NCBI RefSeq assembly: GCF_964204645.1
Contig: NC_134027.1
Coordinates: 24,416,485-24,480,484 of the forward strand
Direction of reading: 5' to 3'
From: Tubulanus polymorphus
Lineage: Eukaryota > Nemertea > Palaeonemertea > Tubulaniformes > Tubulanidae
DNA: 64,000 bases
How positions within the stretch are numbered: position 1 is the stretch's first letter; each line of letters starts with the position of its first letter. A program made the translations under genes and the position numbers. Of the stretch, positions 1 to 55,855 are shown piece by piece. Under the pieces are notes generated by a model. The model did not search any database. It worked only from the letters and a program-made list of their open reading frames with translations, and had not been told where the DNA came from.

Positions 1-3000
1 ATGGAACCGGGCCCAGATCCCGGTTACCTGTTGTATACGATAAGTAGAAAGCGTTGACTCGGTCGAACTTGCGTATATTTAACGAGAGTTGTCGTTTTTC
101 CAGTTCCTAAAAATCATAAGTTACTCGTTAAGCCAGTGGTATATCAAACGGTCACATTGACATTCATCACCATCAATCGTTTACTCATTTACATCAGTTC
201 TGCTCTTCTAAATTCGAATTGGATCGGTTAAAACGTACAACAATTCAACAAAACTTAACAGAATTCAACAGAACTGAATTCGTTCCACATTCCTACCTGC
301 GAATGCGACTATTTTGATAGTTTCTCCCGCGTCGATGTTGTGATTTACGATTCTCATCTGCTCGTGAGTTAGACGTAGTCCTTTTTCCGATTGGCTAAAA
401 TTCGATGAAAAATCTTTCGTTTTTGGGAAGGCTTCATTCATTGACCAATTTTATGTATCAACATACTACATAAGAAACCCTGCACAGTATACTGGGCCCA
501 GTTCCGTAGATCTTGGTGCAAATGTGACTCTAAATTAGGTATTAAATATAGTCAAACTAAACCGTAAACGATGAATAAGGGTCCAATGCTGGTTCCATAG
601 TCATTGCTTGGACTTAAGACCAGTCTACGACTATTCAGTTCATAGCCAATATCACAACTTAAGACCGGTCACAAGATTTAAGACCACCTATAGACTTAAG
701 TCACAATTATGGGACTGATTTGGATTTAACCCTTTCAGTGCTGGCTAATTTAATACCCTATAGTGCTGAAGATAATTTGAAAATTCTGAAAAATTCCACC
801 CTAGTGTGTTGAATAACGGGAATAGCACTATAGCGCGTCTATACCCTGGCGTGGTATATCGTTAGTTACTAATATTTCACTATGTTTGACAGGTGCTGCC
901 ACCTCTGAAAAGAGATAATTAGTAATAACTAATAAAATCAATACACCGCAATGCGTTGTACTAGCAAAATCTATCACTGATTCGTACACCACACTGTGGT
1001 GTAGACACACTGAAACGGTTAAGACCAGTCCTAAGATCAAGACCAATCTTAGGATATAAGACCACTTTTTGACACCAGTGATGAATGCGGAACTGGGCCC
1101 TATGGCGCGGCACTGGACAAATCGCTTACACTCGATGACATGACTGAAGTAAAGGGGTTCCTATGGAGGAGTTAAGGTCCTTAACACCTCAATACCGGGG
1201 TAGGTACCCCTTAACTCCTTAGGGGTAGGGATATAAACTGACCTGTACTGCAGTATCGTCTGTTGACCTTTGTTACTAGAGAAAGCCGTCTGCAGCTGAT
1301 CGACCGACGAACGCGACGAATTCTCGTATAAATACAACGCGTAGTAAACTCTATAGTGAATACTGAAATGAAAGATTACCATTTCATTTAATATCGAATT
1401 TTTGAAGCCATTTTTTCCGAAACCAATTTTTCTTATGAATTCACACCTGACAACTGTCTCTAGATTGGGTCCAAAACTTTGTCTTTTATTTCTAATTCTT
1501 GACTAATAAATTTCATCTATAATATTTTAAATCTATGTATAAAGTAAAGTAGGTTTTAAACTAATTATCCATTCTCTTTGTTAGAGTGCGGCCTATCTAC
1601 TATGACTGAGATTGTTTTATTTCGGTCATCCTTCTAGACATTATATCAATAGAGGCAAATTTATCAAAACATACCCAAACGGTGCGGTATCTGACGAGTA
1701 AAGGCTACTCAATTATGAGAATCCTTTGTGGATAAATGAGTATTGGTTTTTGTTGCAACGAATATGGCCTGTCGGCCATTTTCTTTTCTCGCGTATACTC
1801 AGCGTTACCATGCTCTTGAGCATGGTAAAGCAAGTACAGTACTCAAAATTGAGTATACCTTTGGATAAAATGTGCCGAGTACATTCGTCAATAAACGCGC
1901 AGTTGGGGTACTCAAAACTTGAGTACGTTTCGATGACTACCCCTTTGGAAATACGACGAACCTGTTCCACACGCCGACATTTTTAATGCGTTTAAACATC
2001 AGCAACATCGTCGCGATGCAGTACAAACATTCCAGAACCTCCATGATCGTGCACTGCGACCGCGCGCACGTTAAACACGCGATCACTTCTTCCACGTCGG
2101 AGACGGTCTTCGAGATGACGACGAGCGCCGCTATCAGACACCACGGGTTCATGTTCTACAAACAACGAATTTGTTATCGATCTGTTGTCTCATCTATGTT
2201 TGTGAAACTCTTTGGATTCATAGTTTCCGAAAATTACTGATCCGAATGCATTTAAACACGGTCTGAAGCAAAGCCAACAGTTGTTGATATGCGTAGTAGT
2301 TTATAGTATACTGAAAGTTTTGAGGTTAATTTTCATTTTTTTTCAATTCATTCCTTAGATGATTCAGTTATGAAGTTCAGTAATATAGTAAAACTTCGAA
2401 ACTCTCAGAACAAACTTTTTATATCATCAACTGTGGGTTTTGCCGCGTCAGCTATATCATCTACAGAATATGACAGGAATACCAGGGGCCTGTTCCATAG
2501 TCATGGCTTGGACTTAAGACCTGTCTAAAACTATTTTAGTTCTATAGCTAATCTAACAACTTAAGACCAGTCTTAAGATTTAAGACCACTTTCCGGCTTA
2601 AGTCTCGACTGAGGAACCGGCCCCAGGAGTGTCTTTCTAGAGATATACATACCCCATCCTCGATACAATCGTCTAATCGTTCAGCAATCAACGCTCGAGC
2701 CCACGAGTATTTCTTGTGTTTCGCCAGACATTCGTTCATATTTTTCGACGAAACGCGCTTGAAATCTTTCATAAATCTGTAAAAATTTTGGAACGATTGT
2801 AAATTTCAATCGAGTCAAATCTACCTCGCGCTACTTAATGGGATACCGGCAAAACTACCGAGGGAAACGAGGATTTTGCAATAATCCGCCAGGATCGCTA
2901 GCGGTTACTCAGTTACCGCGCTTCAATTTTCTTCAAAATTCAAGTCAACCTTTCTGATTAGTTTATCAATTTTCAGTGAAATCAATACCATACAATGAGT

Positions 3001-5614
3001 GGGAAAAGGAGTCTTATATCTATCCGACGAATCATTTGATAACTTTCGTATTTGGAGGCCTAAAAATTCGAATTTTATTGAAAATGAACTGATTTTCTCT
3101 ACGAATAACCCTGTATTTTGTTGCACCATCTGGTGTTGCTTACCTGATCAGTTGTGATAAGAAATCTGACGGTAATTTTATACCGCATTTCTCGCGAATG
3201 ATTCCATTCATGTAAGCGGCTTCGTTACCGATTCCGGCTTTCAATTTGTGATACCTCTTCTTCCACGGAACAAACTTAATTTAAATATCAAAAATTTGGT
3301 TACGCATCTATAATAATACGAGTCTCACGATAGCTTCAGGGCTGACAACCTCTGCAAAGTGCTATTGGTAACAACTTGAATTTCTTTCAGTAACATTTCA
3401 TTTAAATATGAAAGAAAATGATCGAATTATAAGTAATCGAAGCAATGACCCTCAGTAACAGCTTTCACATTTCTGTACGCATCTAACAAATCATATCAGT
3501 ATTTTTTGAGAACTTGACAAAATACATGTCCTTCTGAAGGAGAAATTAGGCGAGATCATAACAAGGTATTGCTGCTCCAAATTCACAACTGCTATTCAAT
3601 GCCACATTGCGAATCCATTTTCAATACACTCAAACTTTGAACCCATTAGATTTCTTGCGGGACCTTTTTTTATTTATCTTACCTTTTCATCGGACAAAAT
3701 ATCGTTCCACTGTAAACAAACGCGATTACTATTCAAACACAAATCCAACATCGGCAGTTGACAAAATATCAACTCCAAAACTTCGCGCGGCAACGATTCG
3801 AAATAGTTCACATCGATCGTCTGCCGCTTCGCCGTCTGCACGTCGGCGCTGTCGCCGAATAATCCGAATTGCGCCTGACTCAAAATCATCGCGTCCGTAT
3901 CGCTGTCGTCGTTAATTGTGGTCAGATCGACGACGTGCGTCGGTGGCAAACCGTTCAAACCGCGAGACGTTTCCGCGTTCAGCGCCGCGAGCGAGAACGA
4001 CGTGCGCCAGCCGCCGCCGACGCTCAAGCGGTTATTCGCCGTCGTTTTTTTATCGATCGTTTTTCGTCGTTTTTTTCGTTTCGTCGTTTTTTTGTCCGCG
4101 TTCTGACTTTTCTGATTCGCGATCATCATTTCGAACACGTTTTTCGGCGGCGTCGATTCCGCCTTTTCCGGCGGCGGCGGATTTCGAACGGACGGACTCG
4201 TCGACGGCACGTCGCTTAGATAACTACGTAAAGAATTTTTCTGAGGCACCGGAGCGACGGAATTTTTTTTCCATCCGATGCTAAAAGTATTCGAAACATT
4301 TCCGACGTGATCGTCGACTGGTAGAGCTATTCTAGTTAAACTGCTCGCCGACTGGAATCCGAAATTAACCCCGGGCCCGGCCGCAGGCGCGCTCGGACCG
4401 CAGTAATCGCCCGGCTTCGACCGCGGATACAGACCGCGGTTCGGATCTTTCGAACTGGTTTCGACGCGCGCGGGATCGGTCAATGCCTGCGAACCTGACG
4501 CGGTTCTCGCGTGGTCGACGCAAGCGTTCGAATCCATGTGGATTCGTCGGCGTTTCATCGTCGATTCTTCTGATTCGTGAGATTCCCGATCCACAGAAAA
4601 GATATCCTCGTCTGATTCAGTATTATCACTGTTTTCGACAAGAGGACTAACTCCAGGTACTAAATGACTAGCTTCAGCACTAATTACTCCAATTTTAGTC
4701 TTTTCCTCTGTAAGTGATTTTTCTAAATCCTGGCTACTACGCAAAAGTTCTTCATCAGAATCAGAATTACCAATGACTACAGGACTAACTCCAGTGACTA
4801 AATCACTAACTTTGACATCACTAGTTACTCCGATTCTAGTCTTTTCCTCGATACAATGTAGAAGTTCTTCATCAGAATCAGAATTACCGATGACTACAGG
4901 ACTAACTTCAGTGACTAAATGACTAACTGCAATATCAAGATCACTAGTTACTTCGATTCTAGTCTTTTCCTCGGTAAATGATTTTTCTAGATCCTGGCTA
5001 CAACGTAGAAGTTCTTCATCAGAATCAGAATTACCGATGACTACAGGACTAACTTCAGTGACTAAATGACTAACTGCAACATCGAGATCACTAGTTACTT
5101 CGATTCTAGTCTTTTCCTCTGTAAATGATTTTTCTAGATCCTGGCTACAACCCAAAAGTTCTTCATCGGAATCAGAATTACCAATGACTACAGGACTAAC
5201 TTCAGTGACTAAATGACCACCTGCAACATCAAGATCACTAGTTACTTCGATTCTAGTCTTATCCTCGGTAAATGATTTTTCTAGATCCTGGCTACAACGT
5301 AGAAGTTCTTCATCAGAATCAGAATTACCGATGACTACAGGACTAACTTCAGTGACTAAATGACTAACTGCGACATCGAGATCACTAGTTACTTCGATTC
5401 TAGTCTTTTCCTCTGTAAATGATTTTTCTAGATCCTGGCTACAACGTAGAAGTTCTTCATCAGAATCAGAATTTCCAGCCACTAAATGACTAACAAACAA
5501 ATCAAGATCAGTAGCTACACCAGATTTAGTCTTTTTCTTATTTGGAAACGACCGATTTTCGAGTTCCTGGCTGCAACGCAGAAGTTCCTCATCGGAATCT
5601 GAACCAAATTCCAT
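1..5614 (-). CDS. FBH1: FBH1: F-box DNA helicase 1, 5' part of the gene (partial, runs off the left edge)
   Basis: FBH1 is a UvrD/SF1-type 3'-5' helicase that also acts as the F-box subunit of an SCF ubiquitin ligase. It removes Rad51 from DNA and limits recombination at stalled forks, in the nucleus. Coding exons by splice consensus and frame are 5614-3683, 3274-3144, 2776-2653, 2155-1962, 1362-1243 and 394-297, all minus strand. Each junction keeps the frame. Exon 1 has a lineage-specific repeat array (residues 48-328), a DPNRGLYP stretch shared with vertebrate FBH1 and an F-box at about residues 604-640 (ESLPREVLELIF). Exon 2 reads FVPWKKRYHKL, exon 4 NPWCLIAALVV, exon 5 IHYRVYYALYLYENS and exon 6 LRLTHEQMRIVNH...IKIVAFAG, all close to the vertebrate order. 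The last codons lead into the Walker A motif (TGKT expected), which lies outside the window together with the helicase core. The start ATG at 5614 opens the first repeat-like unit. The family assignment is secure; splice sites are unverified by RNA. Confidence 0.95.
579..1100. mobile_element. MITE remnants of the CTTAAGACCAG family, interrupted by a piggyBac MITE
   Basis: Left and right remnants carry the internal motif cttaagaccagtcttaag and outer ends resembling GGTTCCAT / gggccc. The intact 140-bp relative is at 2485-2624. The two halves here probably come from two copies, split by the TTAA insertion at 726-1022. The first bases of the window (atggaaccgggccc) look like the end of another family member. 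Confidence 0.55.
726..1022. mobile_element. piggyBac-type MITE (copy 1)
   Basis: A 297-bp element is bounded by TTAA on both sides (726-729 and 1019-1022), with terminal inverted repeats CCCTTTCAGTGC / CACTGAAACGG. The TTAA target site and CCC-starting termini are typical of piggyBac. There is no transposase ORF, so it is non-autonomous. The same sequence recurs at 44255-44543 in the same orientation. It sits inside older MITE material in an FBH1 intron. Confidence 0.8.
2485..2624. mobile_element. 140-bp MITE of the CTTAAGACCAG family
   Basis: The ends GGGGCCTGTTCCATAGTC and its near reverse complement (gaggaaccggcccc) form terminal inverted repeats of about 30 bp, and the centre holds cttaagaccagtcttaag. 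It lies in the FBH1 intron between exons 3 and 4. Diverged relatives are at 579-1100, about 38030-38330, 44886-45003 and about 57200-57310. Confidence 0.65.
4631..5614 (-). repeat. FBH1: Tandem coding repeats in FBH1 exon 1 (147-bp units; SUMO-interaction-like motifs)
   Basis: After a diverged first unit (residues 1-47) come four 49-residue repeats, then shorter fifth (39) and sixth (46) units, ending near residue 328. Each begins NSDSDEELL and most end SPVVIG, so five junctions read VVIGNSDSDEELL: a short hydrophobic run followed by acidic and serine residues. That is the layout of a SUMO-interacting motif with casein kinase 2-type sites. A separate VVDLTTINDDSD at residues 561-572 is an even more typical SIM. 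The repeats are almost identical in DNA, which implies recent expansion or homogenisation. SUMO binding is inferred from sequence only. Confidence 0.85.
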
Positions 5615-6243
5615 TGCGATCTTCTATTTGCCATCATTAGCAGTGATCATCAAAACCTTGAAATAAAAGTTGTGAAAGTTAAATTTTTTAATTCCACCAT
5701 CGATGAGGTCTCACACAGAACCCCTTATATTACACATATCAATGTTTATAGACATTATTGTAACGGTTTTCATCACAAAACATGTCTTATCAACTCACCC
5801 ACCTGTGGTGCAAACATTTTTTACGCACTAACAACATTTTTAGGGTCAGGTTCAACTAATTTATTACTTTCAACCCTCTCAATCGGTACATTTCAAGTCA
5901 GGCATAAATGTAATTCAACCCGTAACAAACCTTAGATAACCAGGTGTATCATCGACATCTCTGCCCCACGTTTAGGTCAAGGCTATTTTGTATGTTTCAA
6001 TATGAAATAAGAACTAAGTTGTACACTCCTACAGTTAATGAAGACAATTAGCTAGGTCGACAAATGCCACCACTTTCGGCTCTGTAGCTGAATGAAAGGA
6101 TTATCTACAGTCTCCTACAGGGTGATGGCCACATCTATTTGACTTGCTTTTTCCGACTATTCCCTGACATGCACATTGCTTTCCCCGACTAGATCAGCTA
6201 TGAACCCAATCAATTAACACAAATTGAATACGCAAAACATAGC
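5615..6243. other. Intergenic, upstream of FBH1; no gene seen
   Basis: This contains the FBH1 5' flank and AT-rich unique-looking sequence. No convincing exon, TATA box or repeat stands out. The FBH1 transcription start should fall in the first few hundred bases, but nothing in the sequence fixes it. Confidence 0.5.
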
Positions 6244-6749: not shown

Positions 6750-9131
6750 ATGGAAACTGTTTGATTTTTCATGGCGCTCTCAAAAAATTTCCATGTACCT
6801 TTAATGTTTTTAACGAAATTCCCTGACTCTGCGTTCAACTGAGGAAATCGAAGATTCCAGTCGTGACAATCGAGGTTATTCCAGGCAGCGCTAGTGTATA
6901 CATTCAAATAATGACAATGAGGCCTTTTTCTCAAGACTCAATCAAAATCCACCCATAACCGGCCACAATTTCAATGACAAATACTAAATTGCCCTATACA
7001 TTTGAACCCTTAAAATCAAAGTGAGTTTACCAAGAGATGCCATTTGCTTAAGTTCTGATGTGGGAGGCTAAAGGTCTTACAGAGCACAGTGTCTTATATT
7101 GTAGACTGCCTTATTAAGAATTTTTTTTGATAAAGGCCCTATTTTGATGTGATTGCTATTGTTACTACCAAATAATCATCATACACATAGTACGAGTTGT
7201 CTATTGAAATTTCTTGTAGGGCCTATACTGTCATCAGTTTTCAAATATCCAATTAAGAGATTATATGTTTGCACAGAGTCAGAGAGAGAACAGGGTTTGT
7301 AGTAAGTAATCAGATAGCAAGTCGGTAAACAGGATTTTACCTGAAAAAGTAAGCCCTATAATCAGCACCCTAGCCTGAAATGTTTCTATAAATACAGTAA
7401 AACAAAAATAATACCTTGTTTTGCCTAAAAATAAAATTGGTCGTGTCGACATTTCGTAGACGTAGAATGCAAAAAAATTGTACACCTAATCAGTTAATTT
7501 CGAAAACTGCCGGGTCTGTTATTTATGATCATTGTAGCCAGGTAACAAAACATTTCATCCAAATGTAACAAATTTGATCGGTAAGATTCGACGCGTTCTA
7601 TTTAACAAAATATGTCAATATAGTAATTGAAATTGAATTTGTTGGGATTCCCCGATTTTCGAAGCCGATTTTGATCTTAAAATAGGGATAGTCCCTGTTG
7701 TTTATTTGCCAATTTGGCTTGTAAATTTCGTTAGATTTTTTGATTGAGTGTCCCTTACAGTTACAGACCCACCACACCTGCCGGGAGCGAAACAGGGGGT
7801 TTCGAAGCCGATTTTAACGAACTTACACAAATTAACAGCGGTCACCAACTATCCACCAGTATCACCAATATCACCAGCATCTACCTCGAATCTTTTAAAA
7901 CAGCGCAAAACAATCAGTAATCACTTGAACACGGTGGAAAATACAAATATCCGATTCAAAGATTTAAAAACATAACTTTCCGAATTCCACTTTTTCTGCT
8001 CCACCAATTCGATCAATCGCGCAATCACTCACTTCCCAGTGCTAGTCTTCCAATGGCACAGTCAACCAGTCTAGAGTTCCGAAATCAATGCGCTCCAAAA
8101 CTAAATGACCAGACCTCCAGCAACATTGAACATTGAAGCATTGTAGATATAGGGGTGCCTACTAATTAGATCATTAGTCATAGTTATGTTATTAATCTTA
8201 CTGAATTAATTAGCAATTTTTTGGGAAATTTTGTTTTGACGCGCAGAATCAAATATAGAGGAGAGCTCCGAGATTATCCCACGAAACTTAACAGCGGCAG
8301 GCGGACCGTGCCCGGCTGCCCGGCATCGTTTACGTTGCGGGATTGATGACGTTCTATTTTTCATCTTGTTCCATCCGACGACATTCATTTTTCGTATAAT
8401 AAATTCTGAAATGTGTGAATCAGATTCCATGTATCCATTGCGTTTTTCGGATCAACGGGGATTACCCAGATTCCGGCGTGCCGCAGCCTACTGGCTTCAG
8501 AAGCATTGCACAACAAATGTTATTCTTCTGCATCGCTAGTTGAAGTTATTGTATTAAACGGATCAAAATTGCTTGAATGAAATTCAGAGTGGTTTACGGC
8601 ATCCAATGTGAGGTAGAGAAATATCACAAATTTGTCAGGATTGAATTTCGCAGGGCATTTTATGTTAGCAAGTAAATTCTACGACAATGGAAGCAGAATT
8701 CTGAATCCCCGAATTCACATTTCTTAATTCACCGGTTTTGCTAAATAAGCGCAGAACATGAATAATAGAACGATTTGGACGTTGCTGATGTATACCAACC
8801 AATGAATCGTCTAAGCCACGAAAATTTGTGCGTATAACACTTATTTCAAATGAGAATTCAAAGAAATTAGATTTACATACGAAGTTTTGATAAAAGAACA
8901 TCAAACTATGGCTGGAAAACTCTTGTTAAACCGTCAATGTAATTTGATTCAGTGCAGAATTTCGGTGAATGTTTTCTGTGATGAATGGTTCAAACTTAAT
9001 CAAAACTACGACGACTGAAAAGATACAAAAGCTGATTGAATTCCATTTTGTATTCACTAGACTTTTCGTGGTTCCGAAAAGAACAACAATCGACCTGTTT
9101 TTACAGAGATTGCGGCATAGTACCTTATGAG
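6750..9131. other. Intergenic AT-rich sequence; no gene seen
   Basis: Short open frames here lack splice-bounded coding character or any recognisable family match. No tandem repeat or mobile element is clear. The segment just before 9132 is open in the GPCR frame but has no upstream ATG. A possible acceptor (tttttacag) near 9103 means an upstream non-coding exon of the GPCR cannot be ruled out. Confidence 0.45.
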
Positions 9132-10196
9132 ATGTCCGATAGCAACATTACTAGCACGACTTTCGCATCGACAGCGCTGCAACTCAATCTATGTCAGCGA
9201 ATTCAAACTCGTCCTGTTAAATGGATCAACAAATTCTGCGTATTCGTGTATTTATGCTGGTATCTACCGGCGTCTGTAGTGGGTTTAATATTCAACGCAT
9301 TCACGTTGTTAGTTCTGAAACGATTTAAATCTGATGTTTATTTTCTAATCAAAATTCTCGCTTTAAACGATCTTACGTTTATGATCGCTACATTCATTCT
9401 GTATCCGCTGAGAACTGCGTACATTTACGCAGTTTTAGGGGATATTGTGTTTCGCAGGAATGACTGGTATTTTGGTTTGATTTTCATCTCAGTTTCTTTG
9501 CCATTTTTCTACATGTTTCAGATGACGCGTAACTGGTGCACTGTACTGCTCAGTCTAGAGCGGTTAATCGTCGTATTGTTTCCGATAAAATCTCGTAGAT
9601 TTCCCATGAAGTTAGTATCGGTATGGGCGATGGTGTTGATTTCGCTGGTTAGTTTTTGTGGTCATTTCATTCAATTCCTACCGAACAATCGTCTCGAATT
9701 CATGAATTGTCCCGATCACTGGCCCTATATTACGATGCGTAAGGGTCGGTACTGGCGCAGTTGGTACCGCGGTTTCTTATGGCGTTACATAGTTTCAGAG
9801 CGATATCTCTTCATGTATCTCACTGTTATGATCCCAATTTGCCTTTTGACTCTAATCAACGTCATTCTTATTTGCGCGATATTTGTGCGTCGGGTTAATC
9901 GACGTTCAGAGCTCGGTGTAACTGATGAATCGTCTAGAAGGGAAATGAGGGTTTTAAAGATGGTTTTATCAGTAGTTTCGTTATTTATTATTTGCGAAGG
10001 TTTTGGTTTTATCGACCGTCTTATGGGTTTAAGATACATTCCGATGCTCGTGGGCGGGTCTATGAGACAAATTGCGATGGGATTTTCTATCGTCGATTCG
10101 TCATTGAACTTCATCGTGTATTGCTCGACGAATGGTAAATTCAGAAAAATAGCTATCGATATCTTTAACAAAGCCCGCACCAGGCATTCCAAGTAA
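9132..10196 (+). CDS. Rhodopsin-class G-protein-coupled receptor, single coding exon
   Basis: This is a 354-residue membrane receptor with seven hydrophobic segments at about residues 35-62, 69-92, 118-149, 159-183, 223-252, 273-297 and 306-331. The N-terminus has a glycosylation site (NIT, 5-7). TM3 ends in ER (143-144) in SLERLIVVLFP, a variant of the DRY motif. TM7 ends NFIVY (326-330), a variant of NPxxY. Cys193 is present in the second outer loop, but the usual partner at the top of TM3 is absent. The overall style resembles the peptide-receptor-like orphan GPCRs common in invertebrates; the ligand cannot be read from sequence. The frame stays open upstream to 9036 but only with non-ATG codons, so I chose the ATG at 9132, just before the glycosylation site. 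No intron is needed. It lies head to head with FBH1. Confidence 0.85.
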   Translation: MSDSNITSTTFASTALQLNLCQRIQTRPVKWINKFCVFVYLCWYLPASVVGLIFNAFTLLVLKRFKSDVYFLIKILALNDLTFMIATFILYPLRTAYIYAVLGDIVFRRNDWYFGLIFISVSLPFFYMFQMTRNWCTVLLSLERLIVVLFPIKSRRFPMKLVSVWAMVLISLVSFCGHFIQFLPNNRLEFMNCPDHWPYITMRKGRYWRSWYRGFLWRYIVSERYLFMYLTVMIPICLLTLINVILICAIFVRRVNRRSELGVTDESSRREMRVLKMVLSVVSLFIICEGFGFIDRLMGLRYIPMLVGGSMRQIAMGFSIVDSSLNFIVYCSTNGKFRKIAIDIFNKARTRHSK

Positions 10197-11006: not shown

Positions 11007-11534
11007 GTAAGTACAGTAAGATGGATACGTGAATGGGTGGAATTCCAAATCGGTTAGGGTCGGGCTATGGGTCACGTGTTTGGTAGGTGGGGTCGGGCTA
11101 AATGGGGTGATACGGCAGGGTGGCGGGCCATGTACAGGGGTGTCCCGGGTTCGAACCCAGTAATTACTGACACTGATTCAGAGTTGTCCTTATTCCGAAG
11201 AGATGATGTACAGTCCCGGGTTCGAACCCAGTAATTATTGGCACTCATGAAATAGACGTGATGCCACACTACACCGTCTGGTGCTGCCGCTATGCTCAAC
11301 ATTAGCGGATTTTTTATACACTAACGTGAATTGTCTCTGGCAACCAAGGCAGAGAGTCTACTGCCAGAGTCAGTTCGTGTTAGTTTATGCAAAGGTTCAG
11401 AGTGGCTCTGACGCTAAATGCAAGATACAGGGTTCCCGGGTTCGAATCCAGTGGGACGATTTACTCATGGGCATGCCCGGGCTTTCTTGGGGTTCCTGGA
11501 AGGGATCGGGCCTGTAGGTGATTTCTGGGCCATG
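11007..11534. repeat. tRNA-derived SINE fragments (three B-box-like motifs)
   Basis: Three copies of a Pol III B-box-like string (cccgggttcgaacccag, cccgggttcgaacccag, cccgggttcgaatccag) occur near 11146, 11215 and 11430, in repeated context (cagtaattactgac / cagtaattattggc). I could not fold complete tRNAs, so these look like SINE heads or fragments. Confidence 0.45.
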
Positions 11535-33487: not shown

Positions 33488-33659
33488 ATATTGCATTCCT
33501 ACATATAGTAAACTTGTATGTCATTGACTTTTGATGTGGATGCAGTTTCATCAGTTACGAAGATCGTCTCTGGAACCATTTAATTCATGATTATCGCGAC
33601 TGATATCATTCCTCCAAGTACGGACAGAAAGCTCGACATGTCTGCAGAAATTGATTAAT

Positions 33660-34335
33660 TCAGTGGAACCTCGTTACAACGAACTTCAGGAGACCAGAAA
33701 ATCTGTTCGTTATAACCGATAGTTCACTGTTATATCCAGTATGAAATTACAATGGAACCTCGTTACAACGAACTTCAGAAGACCAGAAAATCTGTTCGTT
33801 ATAACCGATAGTTCACTGTTATATCCAGTATGAAATTACAATGGAACCTCGTTACAACGAACTTCAGGAGACCAGAAAATCTGTTCGTTATAACCGATAG
33901 TTCACTGTTATATCCAGTATGAAATTACAATGGAACCTCGTTACAACGAACTTCAGGAGACCAGAAAATCTGTTCGTTATAACCGATAGTTCACTGTTAT
34001 ATCCAGTATGAAATTACAATGGAACCTCGTTACAACGAACTTCAGGAGACCAGAAAATCTGTTCGTTATAACCGATAGTTCACTGTTATATCCAGTATGA
34101 AATTACAGTGGAACCTCGTTACAACGAACTTCAGAAGACCGGAAAATCTGTTCGTTATAACTGATAGTTCACTGTTATATCCAGTATGAAATAACAGTGG
34201 AACCTCGTTACAACGAACTACAGGAGACCAGAAAATCTGTTCCTTATAACCAATTGTTCAGTTATATCCAGTATGAGATTACAGTGGAACCTCGTTAGAA
34301 CGAACTTCAGACCAGAAAATATGTTCGTTGTAACT
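33660..34335 (+). repeat. 89-bp satellite array 1 (about 8 units)
   Basis: Units start tggaacctcgttacaacgaac and include ctgttcgttataaccgatag and actgttatatccagtatg. Starts fall at about 33663, 33752, 33841, 33930, 34019, 34108, 34197 and 34284. The first five are almost identical; the last two or three decay, as expected at an array edge. The same unit in reverse orientation forms array 2 at 53985-55855. The sequence resembles ends of pogo/Tigger-like transposons. Confidence 0.95.
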
Positions 34336-35377
34336 GACGGATCACTTTTATCCAGGATGGAGTTACTGGCAAGTAAATGGGTTCCAACCCAGTATAGTAC
34401 CTCCACCAAAGCTGGTTCTTGGGTCTCACCCATCATAGCCCAGTTTATCGGTCATCAGTCCTCTGATGCCTCTCCTTGTAGGTTCTGCAAAACTGTCGAT
34501 AACCAGTGATGTTATCAGAAATAGAAACAGGAAAATTTCAGTAAACGATTACGTAGATGGAATGATAAACAAGATTCTGCCAAAAGAACTGAAGAGGAAA
34601 ACGTTTCGTAGTAAATTTTCTACAAAGGTATACAGTAGCTTTATTTGCAAGTCGATCATGATTATTTATTTACAAAGTTTTTGAACACAATTCGGGATAT
34701 CTCTCACTTCATACAAATATAATCAACAGTCAGTTCCAATATCTTCTACAATCTACACTAGCGACTAATAAATGCATATTAATTGAATATACATAAGAAA
34801 TGCACAATTGTTTCACACAATTTTAAGTACATAGATCATCACCTGAACACTATCGGTAACAATATACAAAATGCAAATTGTGTTTATTTCAAAAATATGA
34901 GGTACATACCGGTAGGTGCAATTATCGAGGTATCAAAGTCTTTACCTTACTCAGTGTAGTCGAGCACTAATTCAAGTACAGTTCAAAGTAAATTACAATA
35001 CAGAGATGATTTTCCCGGACCAGATCATACCTGCAGGTCGCAAGACGTCACCTCTGGTAATCACCCACAATAATTTGACCCGTGCTTAAATTTTCGACGT
35101 TAACTGTGGGACCAACTTTGTCCCGCGTCAAAACAAGCATTTGGAAACGGTGTAAACAGTTGGCCTGGGTCAAAAACGTTCGCGTGATCACGAATAGTCT
35201 GAACACAATATTCACGCAAATATTGACTCATAAAAGACCGAACTTTACACAGAATATTCCTTAAAGTGCGAAACAGTTTTTTTTAGAAATGTCTTTCGTA
35301 ATCCTTAGTCCGAGTGAGGAGGATACGCTTTGGAAATTCTTCACAGATCGAGCTCGCTCCTCCGTCTAGAGTGAATC
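34336..35377. other. Spacer holding the MCM2 3' UTR
   Basis: Minus-strand AATAAA candidates occur at 34645-34640 and nearby, so the MCM2 3' UTR probably runs about 0.7 kb from 35377. MCM2 and the two-exon gene are thus tail to tail, with satellite array 1 between them. No other gene is seen. Confidence 0.5.
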
Positions 35378-45297
<9,920 letters not shown>

Positions 45298-53790: not shown

Positions 53791-53984
53791 GTCAGACGAA
53801 GAGGCCTACAATAAACTGATAACTCTTATGAACTTTATCAGATAACCAGCTGGCTGGCTGGGAAACGACAAACCAAAGCATTTCTCCTGAATGATATGAG
53901 AGAAGATTTGACCATTGACCTACTTTTCATATACTTTAAAAAAGACATCGGTATCGAGGACAATTTTATCGATTATAACTAACA

Positions 53985-55855
53985 GATTTTCTGGTCTGAA
54001 GTTCATTGTATTAAGAGAATCCACTGTAATTTCATACTTGATATAACAGTGAACTATCGGTTATAACGAACAGATCTTCTGCTCTTCTGAAGTTCGCTGT
54101 AACGAGGTTCCATTGTAATTTCTTACTGGATATAACGGTGAACTATCGGTTATAACGAACAGATCTTCTGCTCTTCTGAAGTTCGCTGTAACGAGGTTCC
54201 ATTGTAATTTCTTACTGGATATAACGGTGAACTATCGGTTATAACGAACAGATCTTCTGCTCTTCTGCAGTTCGCTGTCACGAGGTTCCATTGTAATTTC
54301 TTACTGGATATAACGGTGAACTATCGGTTATAACGAACAGATCTTCTGCTCTTCTGAAGTTCGCTGTAACGAGGTTCCATTGTAATTTCATACTGGATAT
54401 AACAGTGAACTATCGGTTATAACAAACAGATCTTCTGCTCTTCTGAAGTTCGCTGTAACGAGGTTCCATTGTAATTTCTTACTGGATATAACGGTGAACT
54501 ATCGGTCATAACAAACATATTTTCTCGTCTCCTGAAGTTCGTTGTAACGAGGTTCCACTGTAATTTCTTACTGGATATAATAGTGAACTATCGGTTATAA
54601 CGAACAGATTTTCTGGTCTCCTGAAGTTCGTTGTAACGAGGTTCCATTGTAATTTCTTACTGGATATAATAGTGAACTATCGGTTATAACGAACAGATTT
54701 TCTGGTCTCCTAAAGTTCGTTGTAACGAGGTTCCACTGTAATTTCTTACTGGATGTAACAGTGAACTATCGGTTATAACGAACAGATCTTCTGCTCTTCT
54801 GAAGTTCGCTGTAACGAGGTTCCATTGTAATTTCTTACTGGATATAATAGTGAACTATCGGTTATAACGAACAGATTTTCTGGTCTCCTAAAGTTCGTTG
54901 TAACGAGGTTCCACTGTAATTTCTTACTGGATATAACAGTGAACTATCGGTTATAACGAACAGATTTTCTGGTCTCCTAAAGTTCGTTGTAACGAGGTTC
55001 CACTGTAATTTCATACTGGATATAACAGTGAACTATCGGTTATAACGAACAGATTTTCTGGTCTCCTAAAGTTCGTTGTAACGAGGTTCCACTGTAATTT
55101 CATACTGGATATAACAGTGAACTATCGGTTATAACCAACAGATTTTCTGGTCTCCTAAAGTTCGTTGTAACGAGGTTCCACTGTAATTTCATACCGGATA
55201 TAACAGTGAACTATCGGTTATAACGAACAGATTTTCTGGTCTCCTAAAGTTCGTTGTAACGAGGTTCCACTGTAATTTCATACCGGATATAACAGTGAAC
55301 TATCGGTTATAACGAACAGATTTTCTGGTCTCCTGAAGTTCGCTGTAACGAGGTTTCATTGTAATTTCATACCGGATATAACAGTGAACTATCGGTTATA
55401 ACGAACAGATTTTCTGGTCTCCTGAAGTTCGTTGTAACGAGGTTCCACTGTAATTTCTTACTGGATATAACAGTGAACTATCGGTTATAACGAACAGATT
55501 TTCTGGTCTCCTAAAGTTCGTTGTAACGAGGTTCCACTAATTTCATACCGGATATAACAGTGAACTATTGGTTATAACGAACAGATTTTCTGGTCTCCTG
55601 AAGTTCGTTGTAACGAGGTTCCACTGTAATTTCTTACTGGATATAACAGTGAACTATCGGTTATAACGAACAGATTTTCTGGTCTCCTAAAGTTCGTTGT
55701 AACGAGGTTCCACTAATTTCATACCGGATATAACAGTGAACTATTGGTTATAACGAACAGATTTTCTGGTCTCCTGAAGTTCGTTGTAACGAGGTTCCAC
55801 TGTAATTTCATACTGGATATAACTGTGTACTATCGGTTATAACGAACAGATTTTC
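53985..55855 (-). repeat. 89-bp satellite array 2 (about 21 units, opposite to array 1)
   Basis: Units read atttcatactggatataaca, gtgaactatcggttataacg and gttcgttgtaacgaggttcc. Two main subtypes exist. Early units have agatcttctgctcttctgaa-gttcgct; later ones have agattttctggtctcctaaa-gttcgtt. They interleave around 54580-54870. Two units lack 'tg' in cactgtaatttc (about 55541 and 55714), with matching neighbours, which points to a multi-unit duplication. It is the reverse complement of array 1 at 33660-34335. Confidence 0.95.

Follow-up and report, generated by a model that had tools for sequence, protein, structure and literature searches.

The FBH1 gene and its N-terminal repeat array

The 64,000-nucleotide stretch of contig NC_134027.1 analyzed here (the window) carries, on its minus strand, exons of a gene assigned from its sequence to the F-box DNA helicase FBH1. 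At the N-terminus of the encoded protein lies an array of seven tandem units (window 4634-5602), a genuine expansion of a coding repeat that human FBH1 lacks. The features of the gene within the window, all on the minus strand, are as follows.

3683..5614, minus: FBH1 array-bearing coding exon; 644 codons, the first coding exon identified
5471..5602, minus: repeat unit 1 (44 residues), starting 4 residues past the start Met; without PVVIG, ending in VSHLVAGN
5324..5470, minus: repeat unit 2 (49 residues); terminal PVVIGN at 5341-5324
5177..5323, minus: repeat unit 3 (49 residues); terminal PVVIGN at 5194-5177
5030..5176, minus: repeat unit 4 (49 residues); terminal PVVIGN at 5047-5030
4883..5029, minus: repeat unit 5 (49 residues); terminal PVVIGN at 4900-4883
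4766..4882, minus: repeat unit 6 (39 residues), without SQDLEKSF; ending in VSDLVTG/VSPVVIGN, with PVVIGN at 4783-4766
4634..4765, minus: repeat unit 7 (44 residues), ending in SPLVE; PVVIG degraded
4604..4633, minus: NSDNTESDED (from translation), interpreted as the decayed start of an eighth unit
4556..4558, minus: Met353, about where the alignment with the human FBH1 N-terminus starts; a possible alternative start
4424..4447, minus: DPNRGLYP, counterpart of DPNHGLYP near the human FBH1 N-terminus (human residues 1-74 provisional)
4217..4240, minus: KNSLRSYL, resembling a PCNA-interacting peptide (PIP) box without the leading Gln; the only PIP-like match in this exon (regular expression)
3899..3934, minus: VVDLTTINDDSD, residues 561-572, lone classical candidate SUMO-interacting motif (SIM) ahead of the F-box (pattern scan)
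3686..3802, minus: F-box, residues 605-643, at the end of the array exon (Pfam F-box-like, PF12937)
3144..3274, minus: FBH1 exon following the array exon (FVPWKK...), from tblastn with human FBH1 and the in-frame junction
1961..2152 (ends approximate), minus: FBH1 exon (NPWCLIAALVV...), from tblastn with human FBH1 (E=1.3e-9)
27..113 (ends approximate), minus: Walker A helicase exon (GTGKTTTLVKY), from tblastn with human FBH1

The open reading frame (ORF) runs from an ATG at 5614, set in the context GCAATGG and immediately preceded by an in-frame TAG, to a stop at 3674. A consensus donor (GAAAAG/GTAAGA) after base 3683 permits an in-frame splice to the following exon, giving SDEK/FVPWKK. The F-box profile scores 24.7 bits against the PF12937 cut-off of 24.3. 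In a tblastn search with human FBH1, Walker A maps to window position 107 and the later helicase motifs come in their expected order within the 10 kb to the left of the window; GTGKT, DEAQD, QQIY, and VAATRAKK follow one another on one strand, as in a UvrD-type helicase. Hand-joined exon pieces match the F-box DNA helicase 1 of PDB 9xzj (E=1.6e-88), bearing out the original prediction that the gene is FBH1, and a genome search with a helicase piece returned three matches, all of them exons of one FBH1 gene. These matches identify the gene as FBH1, its exons encoding an F-box and a UvrD-type helicase; its predicted functions are SCF assembly and removal of RAD51. A review confines homologues with both F-box and helicase activities to S. 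pombe and vertebrates (PMC13200063). If the present genome is that of an invertebrate, which its size of 268 Mb and the 48% identity to human FBH1 suggest without proving it, this gene, with its predicted activities, would fall outside that range. A short tandem repeat, translating to GRDIRYQE and EISGTRRV in two frames, also lies between two FBH1 exons, ∼2.7-3.2 kb to the left of the window.

Each unit of the array begins with SDSDEELL (residues 5, 49, 98, 147, 196, 245, and 284), and the units measure 44, 49, 49, 49, 49, 39, and 44 residues, all whole codons. The original prediction had described near-identical 49-residue repeats. This description fits units 2-5 but not the whole, since seven SDSDEELL units are present, only four of the seven have 49 residues, and units 1, 6, and 7 are divergent. 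Five unit junctions carry the string PVVIGNSDSDEELL, and VVIGNSDSDEELL is found, as had been reported, at exactly five places; numbered on the ORF from 5614, its VVIG lies at residues 93, 142, 191, 240, and 279. Units 2-6, and no others, have PVVIGN at their ends. At the first junction the sequence is HLVAGNSDSDEELL, and unit 7 is followed by SPLVENSDNTESDED, which resembles a further copy in decay. The repetition as such greatly exceeds chance: Tandem Repeats Finder reports the array with a score of 1139 and a period of 147 bp, and the DNA pattern for DSDEELL has seven matches in the window vs 0.00 expected.

The coding frame contains no stop over the 327 codons of the array, and the other five frames contain 6, 22, 24, 42, and 71; the array is open in this one frame only, which is also the frame of the F-box and the following exons. 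A tblastn search of the 267.8-Mb genome with a 49-residue unit (E≤10) yielded seven matches, every one in this exon. Elsewhere in the genome, the DSDEELL pattern is matched four times, in frames of 24, 72, 99, and 83 residues, with three matches for a reversed-pattern control. No relatives of the array were found in viral and prokaryote sequence collections. Weak Pfam matches in the array fall below their cut-offs (DUF4148, 21.7 vs 27; P53, 17.2 vs 27) and were taken as chance.

The comparison with orthologues was made with human FBH1 (PDB 9xzj, 9xzl, and 9xzm), of which residues 75-249 are identical to the PDB chain and residues 1-74 are provisional. Human residues 2-249 align from about Met353 on in a match that takes in the F-box (tblastn, E=2.2e-7), and the array is therefore an N-terminal extension relative to the human protein. 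The human protein has no repeat array, in agreement, for this one vertebrate, with the predicted novelty. Starting past human residue 200, nine high-scoring segment pairs (E≤1e-3) give an identity of 211 of 440 aligned residues (48%), a few of which are counted twice. The two proteins have in common the F-box, Walker A and B, the later helicase motifs, and the DPN[HR]GLYP region. Besides the array they differ in that KNSLRSYL here stands against a full PIP box, QRCIPEFF, which we take to be the PIP-type match of human FBH1 and which lies in the provisional residues 1-74. Human FBH1 is described as recruited to damage through PIP box and APIM motifs on PCNA (PMC13200063).

The acidic core, the PVVIG junctions, and the VVDLT motif

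The least variable part of the units is SDSDEELLxCSQ[D/E]LE (the core). Minimum-change counts on a codon alignment of the seven units gave 5 synonymous and 0 nonsynonymous changes for SDSDEELL, which is present in all seven; 8 and 4 for the core (ratio 0.13); 12 and 29 for the unit middle (0.69); and 2 and 3 for VSPVVIGN (0.53). The core ratio of 0.13 compares with 0.70 for the rest of the unit (Fisher p=0.042, on non-independent copies), a contrast that is a pointer to selection and not proof of it, given such small counts and related copies. Unit 1 is separated from units 2-7 by synonymous differences per site (pS) of 0.46-0.50 and nonsynonymous differences (pN) of 0.19-0.25, and units 2-5 are recent among themselves (pS 0.03-0.18). 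Over all unit pairs together, nonsynonymous changes per site are fewer than synonymous ones, with pairwise dN/dS from 0.07 to 3.25.

The two terminal heptads of unit 6, VSDLVTG and VSPVVIG, share 16 of 21 bases, and Tandem Repeats Finder independently detects a 21-bp repeat at 4770-4811, coincident with this pair. In the simplest reading, VSPVVIG arose by a 7-codon microduplication and was then copied by expansion of the units.

The original prediction had taken the five junctions for SIMs with acidic flanks carrying CK2-type serines. The flanks are present as described: SDSDEE stands two residues downstream at the PVVIGN junction, acidic and phosphorylatable, with serines that fit the CK2-type pattern. 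The cores fare less well. SIM consensus cores are given as hXhh or hhXh (PMC8616421), and VVIG lies outside this consensus because of its glycine; PVVI does not fit it either. Both agree with a looser description that asks for three aliphatic residues of four (PMC12751080). In scans by pattern matching with an acidic-flank rule, compared with composition shuffles, the array contains fewer strict cores than the shuffles (one, IGVI in unit 7, vs a mean of 4.5). Loose aliphatic triples with an acidic flank number 10 overlapping matches (5 sites) vs 5.7 (P=0.08; P=0.23 for one unit), and ELM-style SIM patterns find no match over the array. For a sequence of this composition, the junctions do not clearly resemble SIMs more than chance would allow, and the array would be at best a set of weak candidate SIMs. 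PVVIG is not kept in all units, and the label 'multivalent' thus amounts to five recent copies of one sequence, as opposed to five independent signals. On the microduplication reading, the array illustrates the making of a SIM-like string by duplication of a few codons, a warning against counting copies as independent evidence.

The stronger SIM candidate in this exon is VVDLTTINDDSD, which lies before the F-box as had been claimed (window 3934-3899, beyond the interval 4631..5614 to which the original prediction was assigned). Its VVDLT (VVDLTTINDD, from residue 561) combines an hhXh core with an acidic flank; it matches three of the patterns (strict-core, ELM-parallel, and hhDLT) but neither the antiparallel nor the loose-triple one. 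Among shuffles of residues 328-602, hhDLT appeared in 0.17% and any strict core in 16%. Of the multivalent SUMO reader first proposed, a real N-terminal array is retained, and the case for SUMO shrinks to a single classical motif that lies outside it. Should SUMO be read by this FBH1, the candidate VVDLT beside the F-box is a likelier site than the array. Human FBH1 residues 1-212 (residues 1-74 provisional) gave no SIM match under the patterns used, and a literature search on FBH1 and SUMO-interacting returned no match with either term in its title or abstract.

Candidate roles for the array

We tentatively favor, as possible and somewhat short of probable, a reading of the array as a recently expanded, multivalent, phosphorylatable acidic docking array in the FBH1 N-terminus. 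An N-terminus that is probably disordered would have been lengthened, relative to the human protein, as an acidic motif situated first at the start Met (MEFGSDSDEELLRCSQELE) was duplicated in tandem. Each core would be a short, probably helical docking motif open to phosphorylation (CK2-type at SDSDEE, ATM/ATR-type at SQ), and seven weak copies could jointly keep FBH1 close to a repair partner that offers a basic groove, PVVIG being a later 7-codon microduplication carried along with the expansion. RPA70N would be the first guess at this partner, the tandem acidic repeats in WRN serving as the analogy; alternatives would be a partner of the SUMO type or a platform for checkpoint phosphorylation. 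Such an array would give FBH1 an extra N-terminal recruitment route besides PIP and APIM, and would amount to a natural experiment in which an anti-recombinase is tuned by repeat number. A bolder version, which we regard as unlikely, envisages a lineage-specific multivalent FBH1 in which seven CK2/ATM-phosphorylatable acidic helices (binding RPA-coated single-stranded DNA or SUMO) and the classical SIM by the F-box would cooperate in concentrating an SCF anti-recombinase at damaged forks, the length of the array providing a gain control that can evolve.

A helical core is suggested by the helical moment of DEELLRCSQDLEKSF, the version in units 2, 3, and 5 (0.55 vs a shuffle mean of 0.25, P=0.01); for the unit 1 version, SDEELLRCSQELENRSF, P=0.16. 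An AlphaFold2 single-sequence model has a core helix in 7 of 7 units (only 4 residues long in unit 6), with a mean confidence score (pLDDT) of 52.5, which is low, and a second run, of two units and with an alignment built from the units of the window itself, has it in both (pLDDT 47.9). The array was also considered as a folded solenoid; the first model contains helix and strands and the second helices only, and this was taken as disorder with a helical core. SQ occurs in six of the seven units (not in unit 6) and is always followed by D or E. SQ/TQ cluster domains hold three or more SQ/TQ per 100 residues, and here SQ at residues 15, 59, and 108 falls within 100 residues, all copies of one site. 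Residues 1-327 contain 6 SQ vs a shuffle mean of 1.3, and none of 5000 shuffles has as many.

The WRN helicase belongs to a superfamily different from that of FBH1. The two repair helicases have in common a tandem, acidic, Ser-containing motif, and VIESDEDLE resembles VIGNSDSDEEL by eye; WRN, however, has two units of 27 residues vs seven units here, and convincing sequence homology is lacking. The two tandem acidic repeats of WRN are described as binding RPA70N and RPA70A (PMC6768877) and as carrying damage-induced phosphoserines (PMC3927811). The genome encodes an RPA70N-type domain piece (36.1 bits vs a cut-off of 26.7). Motifs that bind RPA70N pair an acidic stretch with spaced hydrophobic residues; the core here is acidic, with the helical moments given above. 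The unit is no more similar to the WRN repeat than to the Daxx SIM, and sequence comparison therefore cannot name the partner; by analogy, RPA is as good a guess as SUMO.

Several observations weigh against a docking array. AlphaFold2 confidence is low, the two models disagree outside the core, and a Foldseek search of the PDB with the first model gave no match at E≤0.001. The unit resembles the WRN repeat weakly (shuffle P=0.043, with P=0.041 for the Daxx SIM), and its resemblances to the RPA70N-binding ATRIP analogue (P=0.09) and the PML SIM (P=0.13) are not significant. FANCJ needs aromatic residues to bind RPA70N (PMC6768877), and in their core region the units here contain no more than one Phe. 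The core-vs-rest selection contrast is marginal and comes from recently copied units; unit pairs 3-6, 5-6, 3-5, and 2-6 have dN/dS >1, on few changes; and unit 6 lacks SQDLEKSF.

Next to the docking array we rank a neutral coding minisatellite, in which a 147-bp unit expands by unequal exchange in a length-tolerant disordered tail and function resides at most in the ancestral single motif. We consider this explanation somewhat doubtful: the near-identity and recency of units 2-5, the length of unit 6 (10 residues shorter), the degraded end of unit 7, the many other tandem arrays in the window (42 overlapping rows from Tandem Repeats Finder), and the ratio near 0.7 outside the core all agree with it, but it does not anticipate a reading frame intact over seven units or an SDSDEELL free of amino-acid change in the face of five synonymous changes. 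A very improbable alternative keeps the array out of the main protein, through translation from Met353, which matches the human start, or an alternative promoter that skips the array. The human alignment begins about there and, if the exon begins at an acceptor-like TTTCAAG, the array ATG is preceded by two out-of-frame ATGs (5637 and 5634) and by an in-frame one at 5650, which the TAG just before 5614 closes. The deficit of nonsynonymous changes over all unit pairs, the single open frame, and the GCAATGG start context with an in-frame stop just upstream argue otherwise, as does a scan for splice donor and acceptor patterns across 5614-4500, which found no internal match under the patterns used.

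A SUMO array, in which the PVVIGNSDSDEE junctions would serve as five weak SIMs tuned by CK2 and, together with VVDLT, would bind poly-SUMO or proteins bearing several SUMOs, SUMO-PCNA among them, and so concentrate FBH1 there, is in our judgment decidedly unlikely. PVVI, three aliphatic residues and then SDSDEE, suits the loose definition given above (PMC12751080), VVDLT fits hhXh, and the unit slightly resembles the Daxx SIM, whose IIVLSDSD is described as CK2-regulated (PMC8616421). The same source presents Srs2 as SIM-containing and associated with SUMO-PCNA; Srs2 is, like FBH1, an anti-recombinase helicase reaching PCNA through short motifs, but a SIM function here is no more than a prediction, made for VVDLT and not for the array. 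RNF4 likewise has several short motifs in its N-terminal region, but its SIMs are characterized as closely spaced (PMC12751080), whereas the motifs here are 39-49 residues apart with a non-classical core. The glycine in VVIG, the two-residue GN gap between core and acidic stretch, the absence of PVVIG from unit 1 and its degradation after unit 7, and the shuffle comparisons for strict cores and loose triples all tell against SUMO binding by the array. Still less probable is a checkpoint-kinase platform, in which ATM/ATR would phosphorylate the six-SQ cluster and thereby recruit a phospho-reader or switch FBH1 off. The number and clustering of SQ and the acidic residue after all six agree with such a platform; the excess, however, comes from copying one SQ (P=0.22 for a single unit), and unit 6 has none. 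On the docking reading that we favor, SQ phosphorylation would be one property of the core.

Elsewhere in the window

By eye, a single-exon ORF of 386 residues at 9036-10196 (plus strand) resembles a rhodopsin-type G protein-coupled receptor, and an open frame at 38847-39314 (minus strand) resembles the AAA region of MCM2. Scans of the window yielded no Rfam match at the gathering threshold and no tRNA with ARAGORN, and a search of the assembly for mitochondrial COX1 gave no match. At ∼11140-11450 (plus strand), repeated CCCGGGTTCGAACCCAGT-like strings are suggestive, by eye, of tRNA-derived short interspersed elements. Tandem Repeats Finder also reports apparently the same 89-bp unit at 33657-34366 and at 53967-55855, in opposite orientation and in 8 and 21 copies, respectively.

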